A program made the position numbers and the translations under genes. A stretch of DNA of 20,732 nucleotides, taken from positions 1 through 20,732 of the IMG/VR virus record IMGVR_UViG_3300022845_000027; one strand, written 5' to 3'. This DNA comes from a virus. Within the stretch, counting starts at the first letter, position 1; every line of letters begins with the position of its first letter. The notes below the pieces were generated by a model that saw nothing but the letters and a program-made list of their open reading frames with translations, did no database searches and had not been told where the DNA came from. Positions 1-12,871 of this stretch are shown in pieces.

Positions 1-11
1 AAATCAACAGG

Positions 12-266
12 TTAGTGGACCGTGATCTCTTCTTCAGTGTAATCGTTAAGCTTTTCCCTGTCGACGTCGTAGTGCATTTCCATCATTACAAGGAAAGCTT
101 CTTTCTTGACCCCTGATCCTTGGGCCGTGGCGCACAGCATATTAGTCAAGACGCACATCAGCTCGCTAGGGCCAATGTCGAGAGTATTTTCCATCTCTTC
201 GACGACGGCCCACATTTCGTCGTACATCGCAACCACCAATTGGCTGAAATCTTCAATAGTCTTCAA
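12..266 (-). CDS. Small acidic hypothetical protein (84 aa)
   Basis: I do not recognise this protein. It is rich in Glu, Asp and Met, predicted mostly helical, and has a charged C-terminus (DYTEEEITVH). There is no signal peptide or membrane segment. The start is a TTG codon at 266, chosen because GGGAG lies seven bases upstream; the first in-frame ATG is 13 codons further in. Its first 14 bases overlap the end of the zinc-ribbon gene upstream, as in the rest of this gene string, so translation is probably coupled. It is the last gene of the small-gene operon visible here; the operon may continue beyond base 1. Function unknown. Confidence 0.7.
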   Translation of the reverse strand: MKTIEDFSQLVVAMYDEMWAVVEEMENTLDIGPSELMCVLTNMLCATAQGSGVKKEAFLVMMEMHYDVDREKLNDYTEEEITVH

Positions 267-432
267 CGACCGTCTCCCGTAAAATTGCGTCTTCCCAATG
301 CCTGCAGCTAAAACAATACCAACCTCGTCGCACGGGTACCAATTCTTTTTTGGCGTTCTCGTCGTGCCCGATTATCTGCCCCATTGTCTCGCCGCAGGGG
401 CAGGGCTTGGTGCTTAGGTCTTCACTATCCAT
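253..432 (-). CDS. Zinc-ribbon microprotein (59 aa)
   Basis: This short frame starts at ATG 432 and ends at TGA 253-255. Two cysteine knuckles are visible, KPCPCG (Cys11, Cys13) and WYCFSC (Cys40, Cys43), separated by about 26 residues with several basic residues between. That layout is typical of small phage zinc ribbons, which bind nucleic acid or protein. The first knuckle is CxC rather than the usual CxxC. GGAG lies ten bases before the ATG. The gene overlaps its upstream neighbour by 8 bases and its downstream neighbour by 14, which fits the tight packing and fills what would otherwise be a gap. The first knuckle resembles Lar-type restriction-alleviation proteins (KPCPFCGG), but this is too weak to assign a function. 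Confidence 0.75.
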   Translation of the reverse strand: MDSEDLSTKPCPCGETMGQIIGHDENAKKELVPVRRGWYCFSCRHWEDAILRETVVEDY

Positions 433-616
433 AGTTCACCGGCTCCACTCTATACTTGCCGACAATGCCATGCTTAGCCTCGACGAGGCGCACGAAGTCC
501 TTGGCGAACAGTGGCGCGGGCTTGATGTGTTTGGCTGCGTCCATGTAGATCTGCAGTATCTGGTCCTCATCGAGAGGCTTTTGACTTAGTAGGTAAGCCT
601 TTATTCGTTTGATCAT
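425..616 (-). CDS. Small hypothetical protein (63 aa)
   Basis: Unrecognised basic protein, with Lys/Arg-rich N-terminus (MIKRIKAYLLSQKP) and no cysteine or membrane segment. ATG 616 overlaps the stop of the upstream gene as TAATG, and GAGAGG sits eight bases upstream. Its end overlaps the zinc-ribbon start by 8 bases. These couplings and the operon position support a real gene. The body alternates helix-forming stretches and could be a small DNA- or protein-binding unit, but nothing in the sequence identifies a partner. Confidence 0.75.
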   Translation of the reverse strand: MIKRIKAYLLSQKPLDEDQILQIYMDAAKHIKPAPLFAKDFVRLVEAKHGIVGKYRVEPVNYG

Positions 617-867
617 TAGCGTAACCTCTCGTGGATTTCCCCAATGATATCTCCGTCGTCAACCACCTTCTTTTGCAGCCACTCAGCAGGCCTTCCACGG
701 CGGTCTAGGACGACGTAATCGACTTCCGAATACCCGTAGTACTCAAGATCACTGTGGCACTGGTGCGGGTCTAAAGAGACCGGAGGCGTGTAGTCGTAAG
801 CAAGCACTCCGATCTGGCAGGGAATGCCTGCTACCCTGTAGTCAAATTGCAATACGAAATCAGACAT
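616..867 (-). CDS. Hypothetical protein, possibly beta-rich (83 aa)
   Basis: Unrecognised protein. The N-terminal half is rich in Tyr, Val and Asp, with alternating hydrophobic positions suggesting beta strands (FVLQFDYRVAGIPCQIGVLA, about residues 4-23; EVDYVVLDRRGRPAEW in the middle). The C-terminal 20 residues are charged and probably helical. ATG 867 lies inside the last codons of the 48-residue gene upstream, with a G-rich ribosome binding site (AGGGGGTGG) just before it. Its stop forms TAATG with the next gene. Overlaps on both sides and a strong binding site make it real; no function can be assigned. Confidence 0.78.
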   Translation of the reverse strand: MSDFVLQFDYRVAGIPCQIGVLAYDYTPPVSLDPHQCHSDLEYYGYSEVDYVVLDRRGRPAEWLQKKVVDDGDIIGEIHERLR

Positions 868-1006
868 CGACCACCCCCTTGTTCTTTAGCTCTTGCTTGG
901 CTTTGCCTGCAACCTCTTCGCGGCTGTACCCGAAGAACGTGTGCTTGCTCTTGCCTATGGTGACCATAGATTTATACCAATTAGGCCCTATTCGATAAAC
1001 TGTCAC
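860..1006 (-). CDS. Very small basic protein with GTG start (48 aa)
   Basis: This frame begins at GTG 1006 with AGGAG six bases upstream and ends at TGA 860-862, overlapping the next gene's ATG by 8 bases. The protein is Lys-rich; a short beta-like stretch (WYKSMVTIGKSKHTFFGYS) is followed by a helix (REEVAGKAKQELKNKG). That order of strands then helix is reminiscent of the arm-type DNA-binding segment at the N-terminus of phage integrases, or of an AP2-like fold, but it stands alone here. Without it there would be a 140-base gap in a region with no other gap. Function unknown; nucleic-acid binding is a guess. Confidence 0.68.
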   Translation of the reverse strand: MTVYRIGPNWYKSMVTIGKSKHTFFGYSREEVAGKAKQELKNKGVVDV

Positions 1007-1007
1007 G

Positions 1008-1226
1008 TCATTCTCCTGTTTGATCGGTTTCGTCTTCAAGTCTAAATACCTCCGCCTCGTCGAGCATGGATAGCACGTCGACCTTTCGTTTGCGCCCGGT
1101 TGGCCCTCTCACTTTGATATTCACTGCCACGATGTCCACCTGTTCAGGCAGGCCGAACTCTGCAGGCAGAATCTCGTAGACGACTTCAACGGGCAAGCTT
1201 AATGAGCTGGTTAACGTATTTTTCAT
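1008..1226 (-). CDS. Hypothetical protein (72 aa)
   Basis: Unrecognised. The centre has two hydrophobic strand-like stretches (PVEVVYEILPAEF, VDIVAVNIKV) followed by a basic turn (GPTGRKRK) and an acidic C-terminus. ATG 1226 is supported by a very strong binding site, AGGAGG nine bases upstream. That site lies inside the coding region of the RHH gene, so the 41-base overlap between the two genes appears genuine. The end is two bases from the GTG of the 48-residue gene. Function cannot be read from the sequence. Confidence 0.78.
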   Translation of the reverse strand: MKNTLTSSLSLPVEVVYEILPAEFGLPEQVDIVAVNIKVRGPTGRKRKVDVLSMLDEAEVFRLEDETDQTGE

Positions 1227-1497
1227 TTTTGTATTCCTCCTCTAGCGCGTAGGCTTTTTCAGGGTCACTCTGCCGCAAAAGCTCGATGAAATGATCCGTG
1301 ATCAGCGTCGCTGTAATCTTGCTCAATGGCGCCTCGTAATACTCCCCCAGCTCACGCAGCATCGCGTAATTCTCAGCCCGCATGCTAATGTTGACCCACG
1401 GAGTTTCGCGCTGTGATGGGGAGGGAGGGGCCACGTAGCCCTTTGGTCTTTTCTTGGGGCGCTTGATCTTGCGCCGCACGTACACGCCTGTTGGCAT
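1186..1497 (-). CDS. Ribbon-helix-helix DNA-binding protein, putative autoregulator
   Basis: Residues 33-75 fit a ribbon-helix-helix (Arc/CopG-type) fold. A strand (WVNISM, 34-39) would insert into the major groove, helix A spans about 41-54, a turn with Pro57 follows, and helix B spans about 58-75. The N-terminal 20 residues are extremely basic (RRKIKRPKKRPK) and probably add DNA contacts. The C-terminus is charged and helical. ATG 1497 has AAGGAG seven to eight bases upstream. It is the first gene of the small-gene operon. A perfect 9-bp inverted repeat overlaps the presumed promoter 23 bases upstream, the arrangement expected of a dimeric RHH repressor controlling its own operon. Family assignment is good; the regulatory role is inferred. 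Confidence 0.75.
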   Translation of the reverse strand: MPTGVYVRRKIKRPKKRPKGYVAPPSPSQRETPWVNISMRAENYAMLRELGEYYEAPLSKITATLITDHFIELLRQSDPEKAYALEEEYKNEKYVNQLIKLAR

Positions 1498-1519
1498 AAT
1501 TTTCTCCTTTCTGGTTAAA

Positions 1520-1528
1520 AGTATATCA
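1520..1528 (-). promoter_or_regulatory. Putative extended -10 promoter of the small-gene operon
   Basis: Reading the minus strand, TGATATACT gives a TG-N-TATACT extended -10 element (five of six matches in the hexamer). A start site would fall near 1513, a few bases before the AGAAAGGAG ribosome binding site at 1504-1512. No good -35 is seen 17 bases upstream, as is common for extended -10 promoters. A second weaker option pairs TTGGGG with TATATC (bases 1547-1542) at 18-base spacing. Prediction by eye only. Confidence 0.4.
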
Positions 1529-1549
1529 GTCTACACTAATCTGATATAC
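1521..1549. promoter_or_regulatory. 9-bp perfect inverted repeat, candidate RHH operator
   Basis: GTATATCAG at 1521-1529 and its exact reverse complement CTGATATAC at 1541-1549 are separated by 11 bases. The repeat fills most of the 56-base gap between the end of polA and the RHH gene start, and it overlaps the candidate extended -10. Spacing of about one helical turn per half-site is usual for dimeric repressors. On the minus strand the repeat is followed by CTTTTAACC, so it might instead be a weak AU-rich terminator for the polymerase transcript; the low GC of the stem and the 11-base loop argue against that. Confidence 0.55.
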
Positions 1550-1553
1550 GTAG

Positions 1554-3422
1554 CTACTTGGCTTGACCCCAACTTGGCCCAACCTCAACGTCTACCTTGC
1601 TTGGCACGGAAAGCTCCACCGCTTCACGCATGATCTTAGCGGCCTCCTCGGCCTCTTCACGGCTCTTTACCGACAAAGCTATCTCATCATGCACCTGCAG
1701 CATAATGTTGAACCCTGCCTTGTGTAGGGCAAGCATGGCGCTCTTGCACTGATCCGCAGCCGATCCTTGGATTAATTTATTGGTGCCCTTGTACGTCATC
1801 GCCCGGCGGATGTGCGTTCCGTATTTAGCGGCAGCCTCTTCGTACGGCAGGGCCTTGTTGATACCCCACGCCATTGGCTCCCATAAAGGAAAGCGACACT
1901 TGCGTCCGAGCAGTGTTCTGATCGAACCGCCAGAGGCAGGGTACTCGATGCGCTTCTGCACCGCGCCGATTGTGGACTTCAAAAAAGGAACCTTCGCGTG
2001 GAATGTCTGAATAAGCTCTTTGGCTTCGTCATCGTGCATGTCAAGCTCTAGCGCGAGCTTCTTAACGCCCATGCCGTAGATCAACCCAAGACCAATTGTT
2101 TTTGCCTGCTTGCGACTAATACCTGCGATGTCTGCGACCATCTGGTGGAAATCTGTATCAGGATTCTCCTGATACGCGTCCGCCATTTTCTCGGCGCCAT
2201 CCAACTTAAGCAGGCGGGCATAGTGGACCAGTAACCTCGGCTCCTGACTCGAGAAATCGTTTGCCGCCCAGAGTTCGCCCTCCTCTGGCAAGAACAGACT
2301 GCGGACCATCGGACCGATAACGGGGTGACGTGCAGGCACCTGCTGCAAATTCGGTTGGTTCATTGACAGTCGTCCGGTAACCGTGCCGCCGCCCTCACCG
2401 CGCAGTTGATTTATGTGCGAATGAATTCGCCCGGTCGCCTCACTGGCGTCTAGATACGGCTGCAAAAAAGTGTTGTGGGTCTTATTTATCTCGCGCACCT
2501 CGACAATGGCCTTGGCAATCGGGTGCTCGCAACCTTCGAGGAAAGACTTAGTAAAACTTGGCGCGCCTTTATCTGTCTTCGGATATGCAACATTTAACCT
2601 ATCAAACGCCTTAGCAATACTTGCCGCCGCCCACATGTCGACAGGTACGCCTGCCTCCTTGCGGATGTAGGCCATCATCTTCTTCTCTTTCTTCTTAAGC
2701 TCTTCGGTAAGCTCTATTGCTTTTTCCCTATCAAAGCGAATGCCCTTGAGTGTCATGCCTACAAGCACCGGCAGCATCTCAGTTTCCAATTTAAAAATAG
2801 ACTCGACTTCCTCCTGCCTGAGCAGCGTCTCGAGATGATGCCAAAGTTTAAGTGTAAGCGCTGCATCCTGCTCTCCGTAGCTGCCTACAAAATTTGCGGG
2901 AAGCTTCCATAATTCTTTCTTCGGATGAACACCAAAGTCTGCAGCCGCCTGCTTCAACGCCACCTCGCTCTTCACTTCCTTTAGCATGTCGAAGCCGAGA
3001 GAGTTGAGCGCGTAGCTGTAACGGTTTTCGTCAACTAGGCCTGCAGCAATCATCGTGTCGATAATCTTACCACTGACCTCGAACCCTGACGCAAGCAACC
3101 AACCCAAGTCGTAGGCAGCATTGTGCATAACCTTAGGGCAGGGCAGCTTTAAAATGTCCGTGATCCACGCCTCGACCACTCTTTTATCTAGGTTGCCGCC
3201 GCCGCCGTGCGCGATGGGATAATAACCGCACCACCCGTCAACTGCTACTGCGTAACCGACAATGAACCCGTCGTTGCGCGGCCATCCCGGCCCAAACTTT
3301 TCTAGGTTTGGATCGCAGGTCTCAAGGTCGATGGCAATCTCTTTTGCCTCCGACAGGTCAGGGAAATTCTGCGGCGGTAGCCACTCACTGCTCTGGGGAA
3401 ATAATGATCCAGTCTTATTCAA
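1554..3422 (-). CDS. polA: DNA polymerase I family A with 3'-5' exonuclease
   Basis: Replicative family A polymerase, 622 residues, without the 5' nuclease domain of bacterial Pol I, as usual for phage enzymes. The proofreading domain carries all three motifs: Asp32-x-Glu34 (IDLE), Asn101/Asp105 (HNAAYD) and Tyr182/Asp186 (YGEQD). The polymerase domain has motif A with Asp389 (NDFSSQEPR), motif B at 437-452 (RKQAKTIGLGLIYGMG; Arg437, Lys441, Tyr449) and motif C with His578-Asp579-Glu580 (QVHDE). Leu445 occupies the position of E. coli Phe762. There is no CxxCxGxG, so no DnaJ-type insertion like that of the SAR116 phage HMO-2011 enzyme. The start overlaps the helicase stop by 4 bases, and the primase lies just upstream of that. 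Confidence 0.97.
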   Translation of the reverse strand: MNKTGSLFPQSSEWLPPQNFPDLSEAKEIAIDLETCDPNLEKFGPGWPRNDGFIVGYAVAVDGWCGYYPIAHGGGGNLDKRVVEAWITDILKLPCPKVMHNAAYDLGWLLASGFEVSGKIIDTMIAAGLVDENRYSYALNSLGFDMLKEVKSEVALKQAAADFGVHPKKELWKLPANFVGSYGEQDAALTLKLWHHLETLLRQEEVESIFKLETEMLPVLVGMTLKGIRFDREKAIELTEELKKKEKKMMAYIRKEAGVPVDMWAAASIAKAFDRLNVAYPKTDKGAPSFTKSFLEGCEHPIAKAIVEVREINKTHNTFLQPYLDASEATGRIHSHINQLRGEGGGTVTGRLSMNQPNLQQVPARHPVIGPMVRSLFLPEEGELWAANDFSSQEPRLLVHYARLLKLDGAEKMADAYQENPDTDFHQMVADIAGISRKQAKTIGLGLIYGMGVKKLALELDMHDDEAKELIQTFHAKVPFLKSTIGAVQKRIEYPASGGSIRTLLGRKCRFPLWEPMAWGINKALPYEEAAAKYGTHIRRAMTYKGTNKLIQGSAADQCKSAMLALHKAGFNIMLQVHDEIALSVKSREEAEEAAKIMREAVELSVPSKVDVEVGPSWGQAK

Positions 3423-4915
3423 AATCTAAACCCTCGCTCTTCATTCTTAGGTAGCACAATATGCAATGACTGCCTCGTGCGCGTGACGCCCACATAGAGC
3501 AATCGATTTATGTCATCGGCGTTCTTTGCATAATCTTTTGCAAACTTTTGCGAAAGATCCGTGAGCAGCAAAACATTGTCCGCCTCTCCGCCCTTAGCTC
3601 CGTGGATCGTGGACAGTTCTATCGCAGGCTTCACGCCTAACTTCGCACCGCGCCGCAACACAGCGATTAGGTAGTCACGCTTGTCTTCGCCGATCTTGGT
3701 CAGCGCTTCGTGCCAAATTGCGTCGGTGAGAAGGCCTTGGTTCGCCTTGAGTTCGGCCATGTCGTACAGGCCCTCGGGGTCGGCATGCCTTAGTGACTTA
3801 AACCCGCGCTTGATAGAGGAAGCAGGCAGGTGCTTATAGACTTGTCGCAGCACGTCGTAGCCAATCGACTGGCCCCTGCGTAACCTTTCCCAACCAACGA
3901 CCGAGGTCACCACCGAATCGGCGATGCTCCGTTGGCCTTGTCGCTCGAAGAGCAGGCCTTGGTTCTTAATCCAAGTATGTACCTCGTTGAGTATGTAATT
4001 AGTAGAAGCCATAATCAGCCACTCGCCCTTGCTGATATCCACATGCTCGAACTGAGTGTAATAATTTATCTCGCCCTGCTCTTGTCGCGGCGCCCAGATT
4101 TTTCCCTGCCTGTTCTGTATTCGCTTAACGATAGAGTTTGCAAGGAAGTGGACCTTAGCCGGTACGCGATAAGACTGCTCGAGAATCTTTACCTCACCCT
4201 CACAGGTCAGAAAGCTTTCAACATCAGCGCCGGACCACGTGTATATCGCTTGGTCATCATCGCCTGCAATAAAGGTGCGGTCAGCCTTCTCTGATAAAGC
4301 CATAACCAATTTCCACTGCAGGCGGGATAGGTCTTGCGCCTCGTCGACAATCAGCACCTCGAGTGCGGGCAGGCGTTCGTCCTGCTCTATCAGCCTCTCG
4401 AGCAGATCCGTAAAATCCATCAGCATGTGCGCCGCTTTGAACTTGCGGTAGGCACGCTCGACAAACTCAAAGTAGAACCACTCGATGTCCATGTTGCTGC
4501 GGTTATAATGCGTCCGCAGGTCGATGCCGCGAATGCGTGCGATGTTTATCTCGTTAAGAATAGCGTTGTCCGCGCGCACGATGTACTCGTCGCCTTCCAG
4601 CGAGGTTGATACCTCTAGTCCGGCTTCCTTAGCGAACGTCGCGTAATCCTCGGCAGACATCAGGTCCTTGGCCCCTGCCCCGAGGCAGTGGTAGGCAAGG
4701 CTATGTAGCGTGCGGAACCACGGGAAGTCCGTCTCGGCGTTAAGGGCACGGAACTTCTGGATCGCTCGGTCACGAGCCTCGCCCGCCGCCTTGCGAGTAA
4801 ACGAGAAATACCCAATCTGGCTCGACAGGGTATCCTCGGAAAGTTCTTTCTCCACTACATTGAGCAGAAACGTGGTCTTGCCAGAGCCGGGTGGGCCAAA
4901 CACTTTAGTAATCAT
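3419..4915 (-). CDS. UvrD/PcrA-like superfamily 1 DNA helicase
   Basis: ATP-dependent DNA helicase, probably the replicative or primosomal unwinding enzyme of the phage. Visible SF1 motifs: Walker A GPPGSGKT (7-14), TLHSLA (69-74), Walker B DEAQD (191-195), motif III GDDDQAIY (218-225), motif IV LEQSYR (245-250), motif V STIHGAKGGEAD (435-446) and motif VI LLYVGVTRTR (472-481). At 498 residues it is well short of UvrD (about 720), and the 1B and 2B insertions are reduced, as in compact phage helicases. It is co-translated with its neighbours: its ATG shares one base with the primase stop (TGATG) and its own stop overlaps the polA start (ATGA). The primase-helicase-polymerase order suggests a stoichiometric replisome. 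Confidence 0.95.
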   Translation of the reverse strand: MITKVFGPPGSGKTTFLLNVVEKELSEDTLSSQIGYFSFTRKAAGEARDRAIQKFRALNAETDFPWFRTLHSLAYHCLGAGAKDLMSAEDYATFAKEAGLEVSTSLEGDEYIVRADNAILNEINIARIRGIDLRTHYNRSNMDIEWFYFEFVERAYRKFKAAHMLMDFTDLLERLIEQDERLPALEVLIVDEAQDLSRLQWKLVMALSEKADRTFIAGDDDQAIYTWSGADVESFLTCEGEVKILEQSYRVPAKVHFLANSIVKRIQNRQGKIWAPRQEQGEINYYTQFEHVDISKGEWLIMASTNYILNEVHTWIKNQGLLFERQGQRSIADSVVTSVVGWERLRRGQSIGYDVLRQVYKHLPASSIKRGFKSLRHADPEGLYDMAELKANQGLLTDAIWHEALTKIGEDKRDYLIAVLRRGAKLGVKPAIELSTIHGAKGGEADNVLLLTDLSQKFAKDYAKNADDINRLLYVGVTRTRQSLHIVLPKNEERGFRF

Positions 4916-6444
4916 CAGAAGGGCACCGAATTGTTGTGGACAGGAGTTTCAAATGGCGAGTCCTGACTTTCAAAAACAGGAAGCTTCCAGACCCTAGCCG
5001 TGCGGCCCTTAAGGTATATGCTGCTAGGCTCTCCACCTAACTCGCGTAACCGCTGAGCCATCTTAGGCGCTGACAGCGCGCCGAAGTTGTTGCGCTTTAA
5101 ATGTGCTTCTAGGTCCTTGATCCTCAAATAACAAACCCCGTTCGCTTCGTCGGTCCAGACGCGGCCCATTAAAATCTCGTCGCGGTCCATCGCCTGCTGC
5201 AGGTGAGTCGTAAACTCTTCAACAAGATCGGCGAACCGGCCGGTGATTGTGGTGTCCTCACTTGCCTCGGTGATGGCCTGCATCTCTACCATCTCGCTCA
5301 GCAGCTCGTTGATAAGAGCTTCCCAGTCAGGCTTTTTGACTGTCGGCGGCAGTACGTTTAGCCGTTCCATGCAGGCCTTCTGGAAAAACATCTGGTTAAA
5401 AAGACTTTCGGTCTCAAGCTCGATACGCTTACCGTTGACATCTAGGAACCACAACGGCGGCTCGCTCGCGTACTTACTCAGTGACGTGAGCTGCGGGCTG
5501 TCCGGTCCATCGCCACCAATGCCATGCTTGCGCTGCCTACACAAAGTAGGATTGCAGAATGATTTTATCGGGTCATCCTTGCATTTGTAGCGGTATTCTT
5601 TTTTCTCGAGCTGCTTCTGAATCAGCAAGATTTCCTGCAAAGCAAGGGGCGGATTAAAATACTTTTGGTTGTACTCCATCAGCTTGTCTTCCCATCCAAC
5701 AGGGAAAGCCTTCTTCAGATAGATTCCCAGAGAGAACATGCCGTTGTTCCGTGAGCCCTCGGGAAAGCCCTGCGAGCAGAGGGCCTGTAGGCATGGCGGT
5801 CCATCCTTGACAGGTGTATCGGGTTTCTCAGGCGCCTTAGGCATGACCAAAGCGTCTTGGACGTTGGCTGCGTAGATGGCAAAGAACTCCTCTAGCGTTG
5901 CACTGTTCCCGTCTTCCTTAAGTGCATAGCGCAGGCTTTTCTCACCGCCGAAGTAAGGCAGGTTAAGGTAGTTGCCGGTGTCGCCACGCTCGACTAGGAT
6001 TTCAGATTGCTTAGGAAATATCTCCCGCCCTGCCTCACCAAGTAAACTACCGCATGCAGTCAGATACTTTTGCATATCACCGGCAGGCACAGGTGTCTTC
6101 GTGAAACAGTAGACGTGCGCGCCACCTGACTTACTGCGAAACGTGACTAGCGGCAGCCCAAGCTTTTTAATTTTCTCGATCAGCGCCTGCAGGTCTAGCG
6201 GGTACTGGTCGATGTCTATCGCGCCCCACGTACAGCTATTGTCGGCGCGTATTGGAATGATTCCGAGTGACGGATCTATGCCGTCGAAGTGGCGCTGCCA
6301 CAGGTCCTTGGTCGGCGGTTTGCGTACCACGAGCGCCTGACCAGTGCTCTTGCCCTTTGCATTAGGCTCGCCAGAGATTCGATAGGTCCCGTACGCACAG
6401 TCGAGTCCTTCGAAGATGGCCATGAATTTTTCTAGCTTTTCCAT
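4915..6444 (-). CDS. Archaeo-eukaryotic-type DNA primase with PriL-like cysteine domain
   Basis: Primase of the AEP (PrimPol/TOTE-like) superfamily, 509 residues. The catalytic core shows Asp77-x-Asp79 (WGAIDID), the basic nucleotide-binding motif SKSGGAH (104-110) and the family signature EIFPKQ (141-146) with NYLNLPYF (158-165). Residues 216-310 hold Cys218, Cys288, Cys297 and Cys302 (PPC...YKC...SFC...TLC) around SRNNGMF and an RKHGIG end. The spacing resembles the 4Fe-4S C-terminal domain of PriL; a zinc site is the alternative. Residues 320-509 are helical and end in a basic winged-helix-like region (SAPKMAQRLRELGG). ATG 6444 has a purine-rich AAGAAG just upstream; Met8 is a possible alternative start. 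The AEP call is firm, the PriL-like call tentative. Confidence 0.88.
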   Translation of the reverse strand: MEKLEKFMAIFEGLDCAYGTYRISGEPNAKGKSTGQALVVRKPPTKDLWQRHFDGIDPSLGIIPIRADNSCTWGAIDIDQYPLDLQALIEKIKKLGLPLVTFRSKSGGAHVYCFTKTPVPAGDMQKYLTACGSLLGEAGREIFPKQSEILVERGDTGNYLNLPYFGGEKSLRYALKEDGNSATLEEFFAIYAANVQDALVMPKAPEKPDTPVKDGPPCLQALCSQGFPEGSRNNGMFSLGIYLKKAFPVGWEDKLMEYNQKYFNPPLALQEILLIQKQLEKKEYRYKCKDDPIKSFCNPTLCRQRKHGIGGDGPDSPQLTSLSKYASEPPLWFLDVNGKRIELETESLFNQMFFQKACMERLNVLPPTVKKPDWEALINELLSEMVEMQAITEASEDTTITGRFADLVEEFTTHLQQAMDRDEILMGRVWTDEANGVCYLRIKDLEAHLKRNNFGALSAPKMAQRLRELGGEPSSIYLKGRTARVWKLPVFESQDSPFETPVHNNSVPF

Positions 6445-6463
6445 TCTTCTTTCTCGGGTAAAG

Positions 6464-6485
6464 GCCGGAGGGTTGCCCCTCCGGC
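6464..6485 (-). terminator. GC-rich hairpin between the SSB-like gene and the primase
   Basis: GCCGGAGGG at 6464-6472 and CCCTCCGGC at 6477-6485 form a perfect 9-bp stem with a four-base loop. On the minus strand it lies 8 bases past the end of the SSB-like gene and is followed by CTTTACC, a short U run. It is therefore a leaky intrinsic terminator or a stabilising 3' stem that would lower primase, helicase and polymerase transcripts relative to the SSB-like gene. Confidence 0.7.
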
Positions 6486-6492
6486 GTTAGAC

Positions 6493-7269
6493 TTAAAAGT
6501 GGCTGTGTGACTGCTCGCCTCCGGCATCAGGCTTACTTTCATCCTGATGCTTCGCTTTTACGTCCCCCGCGCTAATGCTTTCCGCGAACTGCTTCGCCTG
6601 TGCATAAGTGTCGGCGTCTTTAACGTCACCGACCCGCTCGCAATTCCAACCATGCCACTTACCCTTAGCATTCTCTTGGCTAACGACAGTGAGTCGATAA
6701 ACTTGAGAGTACATGGGAGGAGTGAATAGGCCGTTTTTGCCCTGCATCTTCACCGACATCATCATTGAATTCCACTTGCGGCTAAGCTTTAGCTGCGTAG
6801 ATTTCATTACGATAAGGGCTGGACTAGCGACACCCTTCTCGTCGAGCACTTGCACGTAATGATTTGCAGTATTCTCGATGTAGCTTCCCGTGTCGGTATA
6901 GTCACGGTTATCGCCCTGCTCCCTGTGCGTGCGGCTCAAGATGTCGCTCGTCGCAGGGTAAATATTCAGCGGTGCGCCACTTCCTGATCCACGCGGTGCC
7001 CACTCTATGTACTGCCGGACATAGCTGCAAGGAATTACTTCGATGCCTTTCTTGCCGTCAAACAATTCGCCGGTGACCGAGTTGTAAAGCATGCCGGGGC
7101 TTGCTCCATCAACCTCACCAATCTCTGGCGACATGTTTGTTAGGATTCGCAGGAACGGTAAGGCAAAGTCGTCCTGATTCATTTCCTCAAAACCGCTTTG
7201 TGCGTCGCCTTCAAAGTTCATTGCGACCGCCACTGCGGTGTTACCTACTACTGCTTCTGATTTAGCCAT
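6493..7269 (-). CDS. Putative phage single-stranded DNA-binding protein
   Basis: A 258-residue soluble protein related, from memory, to conserved phage proteins that start with 'DDFALPFLRILTNMSPE' (here about residues 33-49), followed by PGMLYNSVTGELFDGKKG, VIPCSYVRQYIEWAPRG and, mid-protein, KSTQLKLSRKWNS. The C-terminal 30 residues are hydrophilic and flexible (DESKPDAGGEQ) and end in Phe, as the partner-binding tails of SSB and T7 gp2.5 do. Start ATG 7269 has AAAGGAAAA about six bases upstream. It sits within the replication module and upstream of a hairpin, as expected of an abundant DNA-coating protein. The conserved family is fairly certain, but the ssDNA-binding role rests on context and the tail, not on a recognised OB-fold motif. 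Confidence 0.6.
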   Translation of the reverse strand: MAKSEAVVGNTAVAVAMNFEGDAQSGFEEMNQDDFALPFLRILTNMSPEIGEVDGASPGMLYNSVTGELFDGKKGIEVIPCSYVRQYIEWAPRGSGSGAPLNIYPATSDILSRTHREQGDNRDYTDTGSYIENTANHYVQVLDEKGVASPALIVMKSTQLKLSRKWNSMMMSVKMQGKNGLFTPPMYSQVYRLTVVSQENAKGKWHGWNCERVGDVKDADTYAQAKQFAESISAGDVKAKHQDESKPDAGGEQSHSHF

Positions 7270-7289
7270 TTTTCGTTTTCCTTTTGTCT

Positions 7290-7832
7290 TTAAGATTTAA
7301 TGATTGCTTTTTGGCCTGCGTAAGCACCAAACAGATCGCTCGGGAAATCGTTACCGCGCTCGGTCTGCTCTCGAACAAATGCCTTAAGAGTCATCGGTTC
7401 TATCTTCTCAGCTTGCTCGGCCGGATAGCCTTGCTCACCAAGTAGATTCAGTAGACGGCTGCAAAGCTCGTCTTCGCCTCGTCCAAATCGGATCGAGACA
7501 GTATTCTTAATGATGTCGTCCATGCCGTGATCACGCAGCCATTGGAATGCCTCGGCCTTGCGAGCAGCAGAAATACTTGCTGAGTAAAATGCCTTCAGCT
7601 CGATTCTACTACCGTCTTCCATAATGAAACCCTGCATGCCGACTTGGGCTAAAGCTTCTGGGATGGACTGCTCGGTCAATTTTCTAAGTTGGTCCTTTCT
7701 CTCTTTCATGACCACTTCTAGGTCGTCGACTTCTTTCTCCAGCTCTTTAGCTCTTTTTGCTAATCCTGCAATCCCTTCGATATCATCATCCTGCAGCTTC
7801 AGAGCGTCTGCATCTTTTTCAAAATCAATCAT
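7290..7832 (-). CDS. Conserved hypothetical protein with N-terminal coiled coil (180 aa)
   Basis: Residues about 18-60 are a strongly charged coiled coil (LAKRAKELEKEVDDLEVVMK). A globular part follows with GFIMEDGSRIELKAFYSAS, a helical segment (FQWLRDHGMDDIIKNTVSI) and a C-terminal MTLKAFVREQTERG. Similar proteins are frequent next to SSB or recombination genes in phages, but no biochemical role is known to me. The start is ATG 7832, chosen over an upstream in-frame ATG at 7940. The later start has AGGAG eight bases before it, and the extra 36 residues would overlap the preceding gene by more than 100 bases. Its first 8 bases overlap the upstream gene's end. A scaffold or accessory factor for the replisome is possible. 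Confidence 0.75.
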   Translation of the reverse strand: MIDFEKDADALKLQDDDIEGIAGLAKRAKELEKEVDDLEVVMKERKDQLRKLTEQSIPEALAQVGMQGFIMEDGSRIELKAFYSASISAARKAEAFQWLRDHGMDDIIKNTVSIRFGRGEDELCSRLLNLLGEQGYPAEQAEKIEPMTLKAFVREQTERGNDFPSDLFGAYAGQKAIIKS

Positions 7833-8166
7833 CGCTGTCTCTCCTGTGTGGAAATAAATCGATTTGGATAGGTAAGTACCGGCGCTCCTGCTTGTCCCAC
7901 TTAAGCGCTTTGTACCGACCAGAGTTCTTAGCGGCAGCAACTGCAGCTAAAATACTAATGGCGGTGGGGTCACCAATAAACAAGAGGTAGTCGTCGTCGC
8001 AGAAATCTTCTAGCGCCCGTTTGACTCTTTGTACAGTCGGACCGGACGAGAAAATAACCTGCGCTTGGTTCGGTGGCAGAACAATTTCGATGTCACCGAA
8101 ATCTGCTGCCGGAATAATATTATGTTTCTGGGTCTCAGAAACAACAAAAACTTTTGCCACTTTCAT
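7825..8166 (-). CDS. Conserved hypothetical protein, first gene of replication operon
   Basis: A compact alpha/beta-looking protein of 113 residues: a strand (KVFVVSETQKHN), then AADFGDIEIVLPP, a helix around VQRVKRALEDFCDDDYLLFIGDP, and a small-residue helix (AISILAAVAAAKNSGRYK) ending in LKWDKQERRY. I recall similar proteins in other marine phages but no assigned function. The ATG at 8166 is only one base from AAGGAG. GTG at 8160 (protein starting AKVFVVSET) has ideal seven-base spacing and may be the true start. The frame can be read further upstream to 8211, but those residues would cover the promoter and ribosome binding site. As the first minus-strand gene after the divergent promoter it should be expressed early and strongly. 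Confidence 0.75.
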   Translation of the reverse strand: MKVAKVFVVSETQKHNIIPAADFGDIEIVLPPNQAQVIFSSGPTVQRVKRALEDFCDDDYLLFIGDPTAISILAAVAAAKNSGRYKALKWDKQERRYLPIQIDLFPHRRDSDD

Positions 8167-8179
8167 TCTCCTTTCTGGG

Positions 8180-8207
8180 TTGTTTTGCAATTGCGAGCCG
8201 CTATGAT
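8180..8207 (+). promoter_or_regulatory. Putative promoter for the SNF2 helicase-exonuclease pair
   Basis: TTGTTT (8180-8185), a 16-base spacer and TATGAT (8202-8207; five of six matches to TATAAT) give a sigma-70-like promoter reading right. The start would be near 8214, leaving a leader of about 50 bases. The start falls in an 8-bp palindrome GCGTACGC (8213-8220), and another, GCAATTGC (8187-8194), lies in the spacer; either could be an operator. Confidence 0.5.
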
Positions 8208-8233
8208 ACACTGCGTACGCCTATCGGTGTCAA
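8203..8233 (-). promoter_or_regulatory. Putative promoter for the replication operon
   Basis: On the minus strand a perfect -35 TTGACA (8233-8228) faces either TATCAT (8208-8203, five of six matches, 19-base spacer) or TGTATC (8210-8205, 17-base spacer). Transcription would start near 8196 and enter the 113-residue gene after about 30 bases. The TATCAT element is the reverse reading of almost the same bases as the plus-strand TATGAT, so the two promoters share a -10 region and presumably compete or are co-regulated. Confidence 0.5.
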
Positions 8234-8264
8234 CCGAAAAGCAAACCTAGAAAGGAGAATACCT

Positions 8265-9719
8265 GTGGAAAACTTGTGGATTGATCGCTATCGGTTTAAA
8301 AATCAACCGTTTGCACATCAAAAAATATATTTAGAACAGTTCTGGAAAAGACCTGTAGCTGCCTTGTTTGCGGATATGGGTACTGGTAAATCATTCATGG
8401 TCATTAACAATCTGGCTATGCTTTACGACGTGGGCAAAATAAATTCAGCGCTGATAATAGCGCCCAAAGGGGTCTATCGGAACTGGGTAGACGAAGAATT
8501 GCCCAAGCATTTGCCTGACCACGTGGTTCATCGCACGGCGCTTTGGACCCCTAACCCGCGCAAGGCTGAGAAGGCTGAACTCGAGGATTTATGGGAGGTT
8601 ACCGAAGACCTGAAGATACTGGTAATGAACGTCGAGGCGCTGTCGACCGCTAAAGGGTTCGAGTACGCCAAACGATTTGCGATGTACACCAAGTGCTTCA
8701 TGGCAATCGACGAGAGCACAACGATCAAGACGCCGACGGCAAAGCGTGCCAAGAACGTCCTGAAGGTGGGCGAGCAGGCCATCTATAGACGGATCATGAC
8801 AGGCTCGCCTGTGACGCGCAGCCCGATGGACCTGTATCAGCAGTGTGCCTTTCTGTCAGAGGAATGCCTCGATGCCCCTAGCTTTTACTCGTTTCGAGCA
8901 CGCTACGCGATTCTCGTTGAGAAGCACATGGGCTCTCACAGCTTCAAGAAGATCGTCGGCTACCGAAAGCTTGATGAGCTGAAAGAGAAGTTGGACCGGT
9001 TCAGCTACCGCGTAACCAAGGAGGAGTGTCTGGACCTACCGCCCAAGGTGTTTATCAAGCGAGAGGTAGAGTTGACCAAAGAGCAGCGCAAGGCCTACAA
9101 CGAGATGTCCACGCTTGCTTTGGCCCTCTTTGATCAAGGCATGACGACCACGGTAAATGCCCTAACTCAGCTCATGCGCCTGCACCAGATAACCTGCGGC
9201 CACAGCAAGCTCGACGATGGGACTGAGATCAATATCCCAACGAACCGCGTTGCCGAGATGATGTCCGTGGTCGAAGAAACGTCGGACAAGGTAATTATTT
9301 GGGCCAACTATCGCCACGACATCGAGGCCATCAAGATTGCTCTATCAAAAGAGTACGGCATGAATGCGGTGGGCACGTACTACGGCGACACCGACGACGA
9401 GGAGCGCAGGCGCGTGGTCCGTGAATTTCAAGACCCCGACAGCGAGCTGAGGTTCTTTGTTGGCAACCCAAGGACCGGCGGGTACGGACTTACGCTCACA
9501 GCAGCGAGCACAGTTGTGTACTTTAGTAACAGTTTCGACCTTGAGGTCCGGCTGCAGTCCGAGGACCGCGCTCACCGCATTGGGCAAACTAAGTCGGTGA
9601 CCTACGTGGATTTAATGGTGCCCGACACCGTCGACGAGAAAATAGTCAAAGCCCTGCGTTCCAAAATTGACATAGCCAACGAGGTGCTTGGCGAGGAGAT
9701 GAAGAATTGGTTGATTTAA
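8265..9719 (+). CDS. SNF2-type superfamily 2 DNA helicase/translocase
   Basis: ATP-driven DNA translocase of 484 residues. Motifs in order: Q motif PFAHQ (15-19), Walker A DMGTGKS (37-43), Ia-like IIAPKGVYRNW (64-74), Walker B DEST (149-152, in place of DEAH), motif III MTGSPV (178-183) and motif VI QSEDRAHRIGQ (431-441), the last being the SNF2 hallmark. The GTG at 8265 was chosen over upstream frames because AAAGGAG lies seven bases before it and homology-like sequence begins there. Such phage proteins resemble SMARCAL1/HARP-type remodellers that anneal DNA or reverse forks. It is the first gene of the only plus-strand pair and overlaps the nuclease by 13 bases, so the two products likely work together in recombination or repair. 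Confidence 0.93.
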   Translation: MENLWIDRYRFKNQPFAHQKIYLEQFWKRPVAALFADMGTGKSFMVINNLAMLYDVGKINSALIIAPKGVYRNWVDEELPKHLPDHVVHRTALWTPNPRKAEKAELEDLWEVTEDLKILVMNVEALSTAKGFEYAKRFAMYTKCFMAIDESTTIKTPTAKRAKNVLKVGEQAIYRRIMTGSPVTRSPMDLYQQCAFLSEECLDAPSFYSFRARYAILVEKHMGSHSFKKIVGYRKLDELKEKLDRFSYRVTKEECLDLPPKVFIKREVELTKEQRKAYNEMSTLALALFDQGMTTTVNALTQLMRLHQITCGHSKLDDGTEINIPTNRVAEMMSVVEETSDKVIIWANYRHDIEAIKIALSKEYGMNAVGTYYGDTDDEERRRVVREFQDPDSELRFFVGNPRTGGYGLTLTAASTVVYFSNSFDLEVRLQSEDRAHRIGQTKSVTYVDLMVPDTVDEKIVKALRSKIDIANEVLGEEMKNWLI

Positions 9720-10405
9720 TACCCCTGCGAAAAAAGTTTAAATACATCTCACTGCAACGTCAGGACTTGCCCGAGGGCCGACGGTACATCTACGGCGAGC
9801 AGAAACTGCCAAGCGTGACGACGATCTTGTCGGCCACTAAGGCAGATAAAGGGGGCCTTGATGCGTGGGTCGCGCGCGTCGGAGAAGTGGAGGCGGATCG
9901 CATAAAGAACGAGGCGGCACTGGTCGGCACCTATCTGCACGAGGTCATTGAACGAATGGTCGCCTATCGAGACCTGCCCCGTCCGACAAACTGGGAGATG
10001 TGCAAGGGCTACGAGCTCGGCTACAAAATCATCAACACCTACTTTCACAACGTCAATGAAATCTGGGGCTCTGAGGTTTCTCTGTTTTATCCGGAGAAGT
10101 ATGCGGGGACGACTGATCTTGTCGGCGTCTATCGAGACAAGCCTGCCATCATCGACTTCAAGCAAAGCAACAAACCAAAGAAGCGCCAGTGGATCGAGGA
10201 TTACTTTTGTCAGTTGGCGGCCTACGCTTTAGCGCACGATGAAATGCACGGCACTAAGATAGACAACGCGGTGGTGCTGATGGCGGTTCGATCAGACGGC
10301 AGCACTGCGGAGTTCTCCACCGCAGGCCGCGAGTTTCAAGGCTATAAGGACATGTGGATGCGTCGAGTTGACGAGTTCCACATGTCCTTAGCCAAAGGGG
10401 AATAG
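9707..10405 (+). CDS. PD-(D/E)XK exonuclease, RecB/MGME1-like
   Basis: Metal-dependent nuclease of 232 residues. The N-terminus has the PSVTTIL signature (35-41) seen in MGME1-like exonucleases, then GTYLHEVIE with His78, Glu123 (GSEVSL), Asp137 (GTTDLV), the catalytic Asp150-x-Lys152 (IIDFKQ) and Gln169/Tyr173 (QLAAY). All expected catalytic residues are present. The family trims single-stranded or duplex ends; Cas4 is a relative, but the four cysteines of its iron-sulfur cluster are absent. The start is TTG 9707, with GAGGAG eight bases upstream inside the helicase gene. Its last 18 bases overlap the end of the opposing virion gene, and a 14-bp inverted repeat covers that junction. Likely role: DNA end processing with the SNF2 helicase. 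Confidence 0.9.
   Translation: MVDLIPLRKKFKYISLQRQDLPEGRRYIYGEQKLPSVTTILSATKADKGGLDAWVARVGEVEADRIKNEAALVGTYLHEVIERMVAYRDLPRPTNWEMCKGYELGYKIINTYFHNVNEIWGSEVSLFYPEKYAGTTDLVGVYRDKPAIIDFKQSNKPKKRQWIEDYFCQLAAYALAHDEMHGTKIDNAVVLMAVRSDGSTAEFSTAGREFQGYKDMWMRRVDEFHMSLAKGE
10345..10390. repeat. Perfect 14-bp inverted repeat at the convergent gene junction
   Basis: TAAGGACATGTGGA (10345-10358) is matched exactly by TCCACATGTCCTTA (10377-10390) across an 18-base loop, which itself contains CGTC...GACG. The repeat lies in the last codons of the exonuclease gene, and its right arm includes the stop codon (10388-10390) of the opposing virion gene. RNA from either strand would fold into a stable stem near the 3' end. 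Neither side has a U tract, so it may be a factor-dependent or bidirectional terminator, an RNase III site, or a protein-binding or recombination site. Confidence 0.75.
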
Positions 10406-12871
10406 CTGCTCAAGCATGTCCCTGCTGCTTTGACCCGTAGGTCCTTGGGCCACGGCAGGTGCGGCGGGAGCCGGTTGCTCTGAACCAAGGCCGGGCACGC
10501 CACGGGTCTGCGGTGCGCTAGGCATGACTCGAGCCTGAGGTGGCGCGGCAGGCTCTTCGATTGGGGCTTCAACTGGGAACTCTTGTTCCCCTGCGGCCGC
10601 ACGTGCTGATTGAAATGCGCTTAAGATGAACTGCTCAGCAGAACTTGGAGGCAGGCCTACCGATTCCATAAATTGAACAAATGGTTTTGTTGCCGCCAAA
10701 GCCTTAACCGTCTGCTGTTCTTGGGCCGTTCCTGCTTGTTTGACTGCATTAACAAATTGAGGTGAGGCAATTAATCTATCTAATGCCGCACTGGTTGTCT
10801 CCTTCATTCCTCTGCCGCCAACTATCGCTGACGTAATGCCTGCAGCTATGCCCCAACCCCCCAATCCTACCGTTGCTCCTGCAGCTTCTATTGGAATACC
10901 CACTGCAGTGCGCTTCCCTACCTCGTAAAGGCGGGCTAATAACCTGTCCCCCTCTTCTAAACCCTTTTGAATAGGTCGTCCTGTTCGCACTCTTTGGTCA
11001 GTGGATAACTTCACTGCCTTTGAGACACGGTAAAGGTCGAATAACTGGCGCCTACTGCCCTCTGGCAGGTATTTAAACATGGTGTTCATGGCTACGCGAT
11101 TACGGAGCAGCCCTTCAAACCATAATTTATAGCTATTGAAATTTAACGCCCCGTCTGCCGTAGCTTTGCCAAATGCTCCCACTAATCCAGAAGTTACTAC
11201 GCGCTCACGCATTTCTTCCGGCACATTATTTATTAACCGTACTATTGTGTCCGAGTCGCCCTTGGCTAACTGTTTTATGCTGTTGTTTATGTTGTCAACC
11301 ATCGACATCGAAAGCTGTTTCCCAAACAACGAGATCATGTCGCTTTCAAGCCCAACTATAAGTCTAGTGGTTGCTTTAGCAGCATCGTATAACTCTTGTT
11401 TCCCTGCTTGAGCGGCAATGGCTGCAACATCAGAATCTAGGATTCCGTACAACAACTTGGCCATCCCAGTGTCTGCGTTAGCCCCTAACTCACCCTGTGA
11501 CCTTGCAGCTTTGCCCACGGTGCGCCTAACATCGTCTATTAGGGTATACGTGGGGTCGTCAATTGAAACTAAGATTTTTTGCCCGCCCGCTCTCCCGTAA
11601 ACTTCTCTAGGCATTAATTTATTGTAGACATACTGCTCTAAGTTAGATAAATCACTAACCTCGCCACCAACTTTTTGAATCCTTTCCTCTAAGTGGGCAA
11701 TAATTTTAGATGGGTTAAAACGGATAGATTCGCCAACCCCTTTTCTGAGGTTAGTCCATTGGCTTGTCTCAGCGGGGCCTAATTCATCTAACGTAGTACG
11801 CATTGTTTGGCGTACTTGTTGGTTTACCCTGCTTAAATCTGTTGTTCCTCCAAGCTCTTCGACTAAATCCAACGCTCTTTGGCCAACTTTCTGCAGGCCC
11901 TGTGTTTCAGCAGCTCCTACGGAAGAAGGTTTTACAGATTTTGCAATTTGAGCAATCTCCCTAAAGCCTTGGTCTGTGGTGTAATGGTCAGGCTGCAGGA
12001 AATCTTCAATACCTAAGCGCTGTGCAGCAGCAAGTACTTTTTCATCAGGCGCGGCCATTTCTGCCATTAAACGAATGGCTTCTTTGTCGTTTTGTGCCGC
12101 TCTTCTAGCTACATCAACAAGCTCTTGGTCTGACAGTGTTGGCAGGGTTGTCACGTTAGCGGGAGGGCTGTTTCTGTTAAGCAGCCTACCTATGGTATTT
12201 GAGTAACCAAACTTTAAGGCGAAACCCAACGCTTTTAACGCAGGCGGAGCAGCACCGGCTAAGCCTACGTCGGCTTTCCCAAAGTCTCCTCCTAATAAAG
12301 TTTGAAGACTTTCGTAACCTGCTTGCATCCCCGCACTTTCTACACCCGAACGAATAAGTCCTCGGCCTTTAAGCAGGGCGAATAGGGCGCCTGAAGACAG
12401 TCCGCGTGGGATGTCACTTGCCTCAAAACCCGGCTTGATTACATATTCCTGCCCGTTTACCGAGGACGTTAAAATTTGATTTCCCATCTCATCCATTCGA
12501 GAAGTGATGTCAGGAAACTGCTCCTTAATGACATTACTCATTTCTTCAGGGCGGGCCATCATAGTGCCAACAGCTACTTTTGCCTGCTCCGGGAAAACCG
12601 TAGACCATGACTGGAACTCGGGCATGCTTTGCCAAGTAGGCAGCCTTTCAATCTCGTCGGTTGTTCTTCGTTCGCCGGTAAAGGTTTCTTTTATACCGCC
12701 CAAAAAGCCAACGTCCTCGGTCGGTGCAGGGACAGCCGTAGAGGCAACAGCAGCTCCCTCAGCGTCAAGGGCCTGCTGATACGCCGTCGCAACGGTGTCG
12801 AATTCAGGCGTGCCCTTCTTGTCTTCGTTGGCTACGATCCAACCTGCGTAATCTTCAGCAGTATCCGGCAT
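10388..12871 (-). CDS. Large putative internal virion/DNA ejection protein (827 aa)
   Basis: Last gene of the virion operon. It is mostly helical and Ala/Glu/Arg-rich, without a signal peptide. Residues about 656-686 form a Gly/Ala-rich hydrophobic segment (GAATVGLGGWG-like, then GIAAGITSAIVGG) able to insert in a membrane, and another amphipathic Gly/Ala region lies near residues 150-220. The C-terminal 70 residues are Pro/Ala-rich and disordered. Size, helix content, a late hydrophobic segment and position among virion genes match internal proteins ejected into the host by short-tailed phages. ATG 12871 has CGAGGAG ten bases upstream and is two bases after the preceding gene. Its 3' end overlaps the plus-strand exonuclease by 18 bases. 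No catalytic motif is seen; the ejection role is inferred from context. Confidence 0.6.
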   Translation of the reverse strand: MPDTAEDYAGWIVANEDKKGTPEFDTVATAYQQALDAEGAAVASTAVPAPTEDVGFLGGIKETFTGERRTTDEIERLPTWQSMPEFQSWSTVFPEQAKVAVGTMMARPEEMSNVIKEQFPDITSRMDEMGNQILTSSVNGQEYVIKPGFEASDIPRGLSSGALFALLKGRGLIRSGVESAGMQAGYESLQTLLGGDFGKADVGLAGAAPPALKALGFALKFGYSNTIGRLLNRNSPPANVTTLPTLSDQELVDVARRAAQNDKEAIRLMAEMAAPDEKVLAAAQRLGIEDFLQPDHYTTDQGFREIAQIAKSVKPSSVGAAETQGLQKVGQRALDLVEELGGTTDLSRVNQQVRQTMRTTLDELGPAETSQWTNLRKGVGESIRFNPSKIIAHLEERIQKVGGEVSDLSNLEQYVYNKLMPREVYGRAGGQKILVSIDDPTYTLIDDVRRTVGKAARSQGELGANADTGMAKLLYGILDSDVAAIAAQAGKQELYDAAKATTRLIVGLESDMISLFGKQLSMSMVDNINNSIKQLAKGDSDTIVRLINNVPEEMRERVVTSGLVGAFGKATADGALNFNSYKLWFEGLLRNRVAMNTMFKYLPEGSRRQLFDLYRVSKAVKLSTDQRVRTGRPIQKGLEEGDRLLARLYEVGKRTAVGIPIEAAGATVGLGGWGIAAGITSAIVGGRGMKETTSAALDRLIASPQFVNAVKQAGTAQEQQTVKALAATKPFVQFMESVGLPPSSAEQFILSAFQSARAAAGEQEFPVEAPIEEPAAPPQARVMPSAPQTRGVPGLGSEQPAPAAPAVAQGPTGQSSRDMLEQLFPFG

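Follow-up and report, generated by a model that had tools for sequence, protein, structure and literature searches.

A lineage-confined coding hairpin at a convergent phage gene junction where the closest relatives carry a cassette with a terminator

The window, meaning here the whole stretch of 20,732 nucleotides analysed (IMG/VR record IMGVR_UViG_3300022845_000027), is a phage contig with minus-strand genes at 1-8211, a plus-strand helicase and PD-(D/E)XK exonuclease at 8154-10405, and minus-strand virion genes beyond. The exonuclease gene (phrog_298; 9707..10405, plus strand) converges with a late virion gene of unknown function (phrog_6704; 10388..12871, minus strand), whose product has the C-terminus LFPFG. 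The two ORFs overlap by 18 bases (TTAGCCAAAGGGGAATAG, 10388..10405), as an earlier preliminary description had stated, so the late operon enters the exonuclease in antisense and vice versa. The overlapping sequence matches the one found after the cassette of two relatives described below (L002 and L004). The closest named phage, DSL-LC04, has an exonuclease 70% identical, the same gene order and an overlap of 46 bases, and its gene at the position of phrog_6704 is annotated as a DNA transfer protein. No tRNAs were found in about 3 kb of L001 surrounding the repeat, nor in L002, L004, L008, L018 or L020. Elsewhere in the window, a GC-rich hairpin devoid of a U-tract (GCCGGAGGG-(G)CAA-CCCTCCGGC, 6461-6488) lies between two genes on the minus strand, a short distance upstream of where a primase-like gene starts, and the divergent region contains an imperfect 29-nt inverted repeat (8153-8181 / 8244-8272) with mirror-image AGAAAGGAGAAT-like ribosome-binding sites in both directions.

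A perfect 14-bp inverted repeat with an 18-base loop spans 10345-10390, with arms, loop and coordinates exactly as first described. The left arm (TAAGGACATGTGGA, 10345..10358, plus strand) encodes part of Y-K-D-M-W-M, a protein motif also present in relatives. The right arm (TCCACATGTCCTTA, 10377..10390, plus strand) is within the variable C-terminal tail of the exonuclease and its last 3 bases are the stop codon of the virion gene (TTA on the plus strand, 10388-10390); the stem sits within the exonuclease coding sequence, also as reported. The complete hairpin (10340..10393, both strands) is larger than previously recognized, since it gains GGCTA/TAGCC outer pairs (GGC/GCC and the TA pairs) past a 2-nt bulge, leaving 12 uninterrupted pairs as folded, and a 4-bp inner stem. 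The latter belongs to a stem-loop inside the 18-base loop, CGTC-GAGTT-GACG (10361..10373), which is also found in relatives without the long stem. The minimum free energy is -32.9 kcal/mol on the plus and -32.3 kcal/mol on the minus strand (z about -7, equalled by 0 of 200 shuffles), the lowest-energy block of its contig. At about -33 kcal/mol it is as stable as an intrinsic terminator hairpin has to be, on both strands, and the perfect duplex, viewed as an RNase III substrate, falls below two helical turns with its 14 bp. The Rfam scan of the window returned no match.

Such a repeat is rare. Dinucleotide shuffles, counting perfect repeats of at least 14 bp with a loop of 3-50, gave 0.0067 per window, in keeping with the earlier estimate of about 0.004. 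When codons were redrawn synonymously with the protein fixed, 14 bp were reached in 5 of 600 trials (about 0.8%) and the hairpin energy was matched in 4 of 2000, so the amino-acid sequence already implies part of the complementarity. These redraws are what a coincidence of two coding sequences has in its favor; it is nevertheless extremely unlikely, considering the shuffle expectation, the position of the repeat on the convergent junction, and the 636 kb of family DNA (one contig per distinct junction), where the only perfect repeat of at least 14 bp is the one of the window.

The preliminary description had taken the stem for a likely bidirectional terminator, RNase III site or insulator, atypical in lacking a U tract. 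This lack is real, with GCCAAAGGGG after the stem on the plus strand and TAGCCTTGAA on the minus strand, and the hairpin is therefore not a canonical intrinsic terminator. The terminator scan of the window did not pick up the stem on either strand. Within 500 bases of the junction there is no U-tract terminator in the window except for one weak internal candidate, and the GGCCCCTA..TAGGGGCC terminator of the sister contigs is absent from the window. A genuine bidirectional intrinsic terminator is thus quite unlikely, since the U-tract is missing on both sides, the scan passes over the stem and the stem closes a large, partly paired inner loop, although its position, its strength on both strands and the canonical terminators in the same slot of the sisters would all suit one.

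The junction was compared across the named phages, 28 pattern hits and 56 exonuclease loci taken from viral contigs, together 63 distinct junctions at first count; the automatic distances for L023, L044, L032, L037, L039 and L042 were left out because they were set by spurious short ORFs. A DNA-pattern search of viral contigs for further cassette-less relatives returned already known contigs only, and the bacterial genomes searched contained only distant Pelagibacteraceae-associated loci. Among relatives with at least about 52% identity, the exonuclease almost always opposes a minus-strand gene, while the junction itself is variable and can be sorted into three classes.

In class A, which comprises the closest relatives (L002, L004-L008) plus L017 and L018, a cassette of 320-460 nt is located 3' of the exonuclease. 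It contains a sigma-70-like promoter, a ribosome-binding site, an ORF of 68 or 113 codons and a canonical bidirectional intrinsic terminator (e.g. AAAGAAAAGGCCCCTAACTAGGGGCCTTTTTT), the terminators of all these slots having the form AAAGAAAAGGCCCC...GGGGCCTTTTTT. In the slot downstream of the exonuclease stop of L002 (6693-7028), L004, L008, L017 and L018, the small ORFs are unrelated, yet they share a near-identical promoter leader and the same bidirectional terminator type; the two examples compared with PHROG (68 aa, MDYPKP...; 113 aa, MKTFMQ...) had no match. L017 has a further plus-strand gene beyond its cassette, with a weak terminase-small-subunit match, and in L010, of similar layout but without cassette, a plus-strand gene of that kind follows directly. 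The L017 cassette is flanked by two copies of a 39-bp stretch from the exonuclease 3' end (direct repeat, 95%; 2840-2878 / 3218-3256), an arrangement suggestive of an insertion by which the end of the gene was rebuilt. A 41-nt direct repeat (78%) was also observed in the post-exonuclease spacer of L020 (6712-6752 / 6809-6849), near a TATAAT-like promoter, and related-looking spacers occur in L011 and L021.

The duplication in L017, together with the promoter leader and terminator type common to unrelated cassette ORFs, would fit a site acting at the DNA level: a recombinase or another protein could bind it as a dyad, or cassettes could enter and leave the exonuclease 3' end by recombination there. 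The codons for MWMRRVDE would fit it too, since synonymous divergence within the close set is lower there than anywhere else in the gene (0.13 vs a mean of 0.40). We consider such a site very unlikely as the explanation of the hairpin, since it would account for the inner 26 bp at most and not for the perfect outer arms, and L002, L004 and L018 have no flanking duplication. The low divergence was also considered as proof of the stem and rejected, as the same codons are also conserved in stem-less relatives.

Class B includes many relatives at 57-61% identity, where a hairpin in the last exonuclease codons is preceded by an A-tract on the plus strand and reads as a virion-strand intrinsic terminator with a U-tract (L031, L032, L034, L036, L037, L042, L067 and others). 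Virion-strand U-tract terminators within the last 60 bases of the opposing exonuclease were recorded in L031, L032, L034, L036, L037, L042, L067-L081 and L094.

Class C junctions overlap with no spacer, and include the window lineage, L003, L012/L013, L055/L084, L019, L033, L009, L022, L023, L025, L027, L058, L028, L029 and L044. The hairpin of the window is extreme among them and its perfect stem is restricted to two near-identical contigs. L003, the next relative, has a weaker stem (-24 kcal/mol, rank 0.07 on the plus strand) with 3 mismatched bases, the hairpins of L028 and L029 are unrelated, and L033 and L023 show weaker local structure. Eight overlapping junctions (L012/L013, L084, L019, L009, L022, L025/L027, L044 and L058) have no structure above background, with tail-shuffle p of 0.23-0.66 in those tested of L012, L084, L019, L009, L022, L025/L027 and L058, and no convincing U-tract terminator was found near the junction in class C.

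The stem is absent from most class C junctions and so is not a conserved part of the junction, nor is a hairpin required there. The overlaps of L012/L013, L055/L084, L019, L009, L022, L025/L027 and L058 are alike and have no outstanding stem, which is largely the outcome that the preliminary description had named as speaking against its proposal, and the compensatory changes it had looked to are not seen among the relatives compared. A conserved bidirectional terminator, with the stem kept by such changes, is not what is observed. The original terminator claim is supported in part only. In its favor, relatives do place terminators at this point, canonical bidirectional ones in class A and virion-strand ones with a U-tract in most relatives at 57-61% identity, and near the junction the window offers no second strong candidate; the U-tracts are missing and the perfect stem is confined to near-identical contigs. 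That L003 has the same left arm was rejected as a sign of selection, since all 33 codons preceding the variable tail are identical, pointing to a recent exchange.

Evidence on how the hairpin arose comes from the comparison with L002 and L004. Read on the minus strand, the virion gene ends alike in the window and in both relatives (CCC TTT GGC TAA; LFPFG). Past GGCTAA, the sequence of L002 and L004 runs into the terminator of the cassette and that of the window into GGACATGTGGAACTCGTC, while the exonuclease plus strand at the copied stretch is GGCTATAAGGACATGTGGATGCGTC. In other words, the place of the cassette in these relatives is taken in the window by GGACATGTGGA, which copies exonuclease DNA exactly but in inverted orientation. 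The copy is bounded by short matches at both ends, GGCTA...AGGACATG...TGGA (minus strand vs exonuclease plus strand), so that the joint reads as an inverted exonuclease copy with entry at GGCTA and exit at TGGA. Such a joint is what a replication template switch would be expected to leave behind, and switches of this type have been shown to generate and perfect hairpins (PMC8794818). On the other hand, the cassette-bearing sisters have no copy, yet only 2 positions separate the L004 flank (TGCCATTAGCC) from the arm (TGTCCTTAGCC), and the tail of L012 also has CATGTCC. Given this likeness, a simple deletion or recombination followed by substitutions could have produced the arm. The quasi-palindromic core TGGA..CGTC..GACG..TCCA also occurs in relatives.

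Exonuclease codons 192-224 (10280-10378 of the window) are 33 codons identical to L003, compared with 50 of 225 codons (about 22%) differing along the gene, which suggests that the exonuclease 3' end was recently exchanged. Their tails are the same except for three adjacent bases (TCA in L003 for CAT), each deciding pairing, a difference that quasi-palindrome correction would leave, in either direction.

These observations also suit a neutral scar, the inverted copy being a mutational by-product of cassette loss or exchange that came about by quasi-palindrome correction or a template switch and does nothing at the RNA or DNA level. The perfect stem exists only in near-identical contigs, is imperfect in L003 and absent elsewhere, the exonuclease has a variable tail that accommodates new sequence, and the quasi-palindromic core was already available in relatives. 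Against it, the stem lies at the one site where relatives repeatedly place terminator hairpins, and the tail common to L003 and the window retains 11 of 14 pairs, though the recent exchange may account for the latter. Since several sisters do without any stem, a scar without function comes close in probability to a functional element.

From what is established, namely the stem, its restriction to the window lineage and the cassette with terminator in the sisters, we tentatively favor a young, lineage-specific hairpin that would have originated by template switching at a cassette-less slot and would serve as a U-less 3'-end element on either strand. The hairpin probably goes back to a recent accident of copying in an accessory-gene slot that stands empty, and it may have taken over part of the role of the stop signal. 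The slot between the converging operons, filled with a cassette and its bidirectional terminator in the nearest relatives, is empty in the window, where replication template switching across the short matches GGCTA and TGGA would have produced the right arm by copying exonuclease sequence in inverted orientation. In transcripts from either strand, the stem would occupy the former terminator position and could slow the polymerase, or block 3'-exonucleases after termination further on. The late virion transcript would then end near the stem, and the exonuclease transcript likewise, to a lesser degree. Because the stem is within the exonuclease coding sequence, ribosomes would open it in the plus transcript, where it is fully translated, and a weaker effect would be expected there; ribosomes on the late transcript would exit at the stem base. 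Since the window offers no other strong terminator nearby, a 3'-end element would be the most likely function, mainly for the late transcript, and a U-tract-free hairpin at a gene end is indeed what is found. As for a Rho contribution, the composition downstream gives no clear rut-like excess of C over G on the plus strand (C/G 0.8-0.98, near the background range of the window), and the minus strand has at most a slight excess of C over G (1.0-1.2, also near that range). A stronger version, where loss of the cassette removed the bidirectional terminator and the same or a following template switch made, in a single step, the perfect and wholly coding U-less hairpin that took over both strands, seems rather unlikely to us.

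Close phages thus present the same convergent junction in four states: a cassette with a bidirectional terminator, a virion-strand terminator in exonuclease codons, a U-less coding hairpin, and nothing obvious. This series lets one ask how far phages need stop signals between converging operons and how hairpins arise. The hairpin of the window is a modest, lineage-specific example of a known feature type, its evolutionary setting being more interesting. Phage morons are cassettes of promoter, gene and terminator inserted between phage genes, and exactly this layout is present in the sister slot (L002, L004-L008, L018); the window has the slot only, with no cassette.

Hairpins between convergent genes often act for both strands (PMC7566282), and overlapping terminators of convergent genes are more conserved than others (PMC5381666). 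Like these bidirectional intrinsic terminators of bacteria, the window hairpin is strong in both RNA strands at gene ends, but it has no A-tract or U-tract, is inside coding sequence and is not conserved among relatives. Where Rho-dependent termination is followed by exonuclease trimming, 3' ends are marked by U-less hairpins (PMC9927376; PMC13289151), and the window stem resembles them in being GC-containing, U-tract-free and near a gene end, although no clear C-rich, G-poor stretch follows it on the plus strand. Unlike the hairpins of template switching and quasi-palindrome correction (PMC8794818; PMC7202029), that of the window may instead have a deletion or recombination origin. The likeness to them is a perfect inverted copy bounded by short matches and, as in quasi-palindrome correction, three adjacent pairing-deciding bases that distinguish the window from L003 in otherwise identical DNA.
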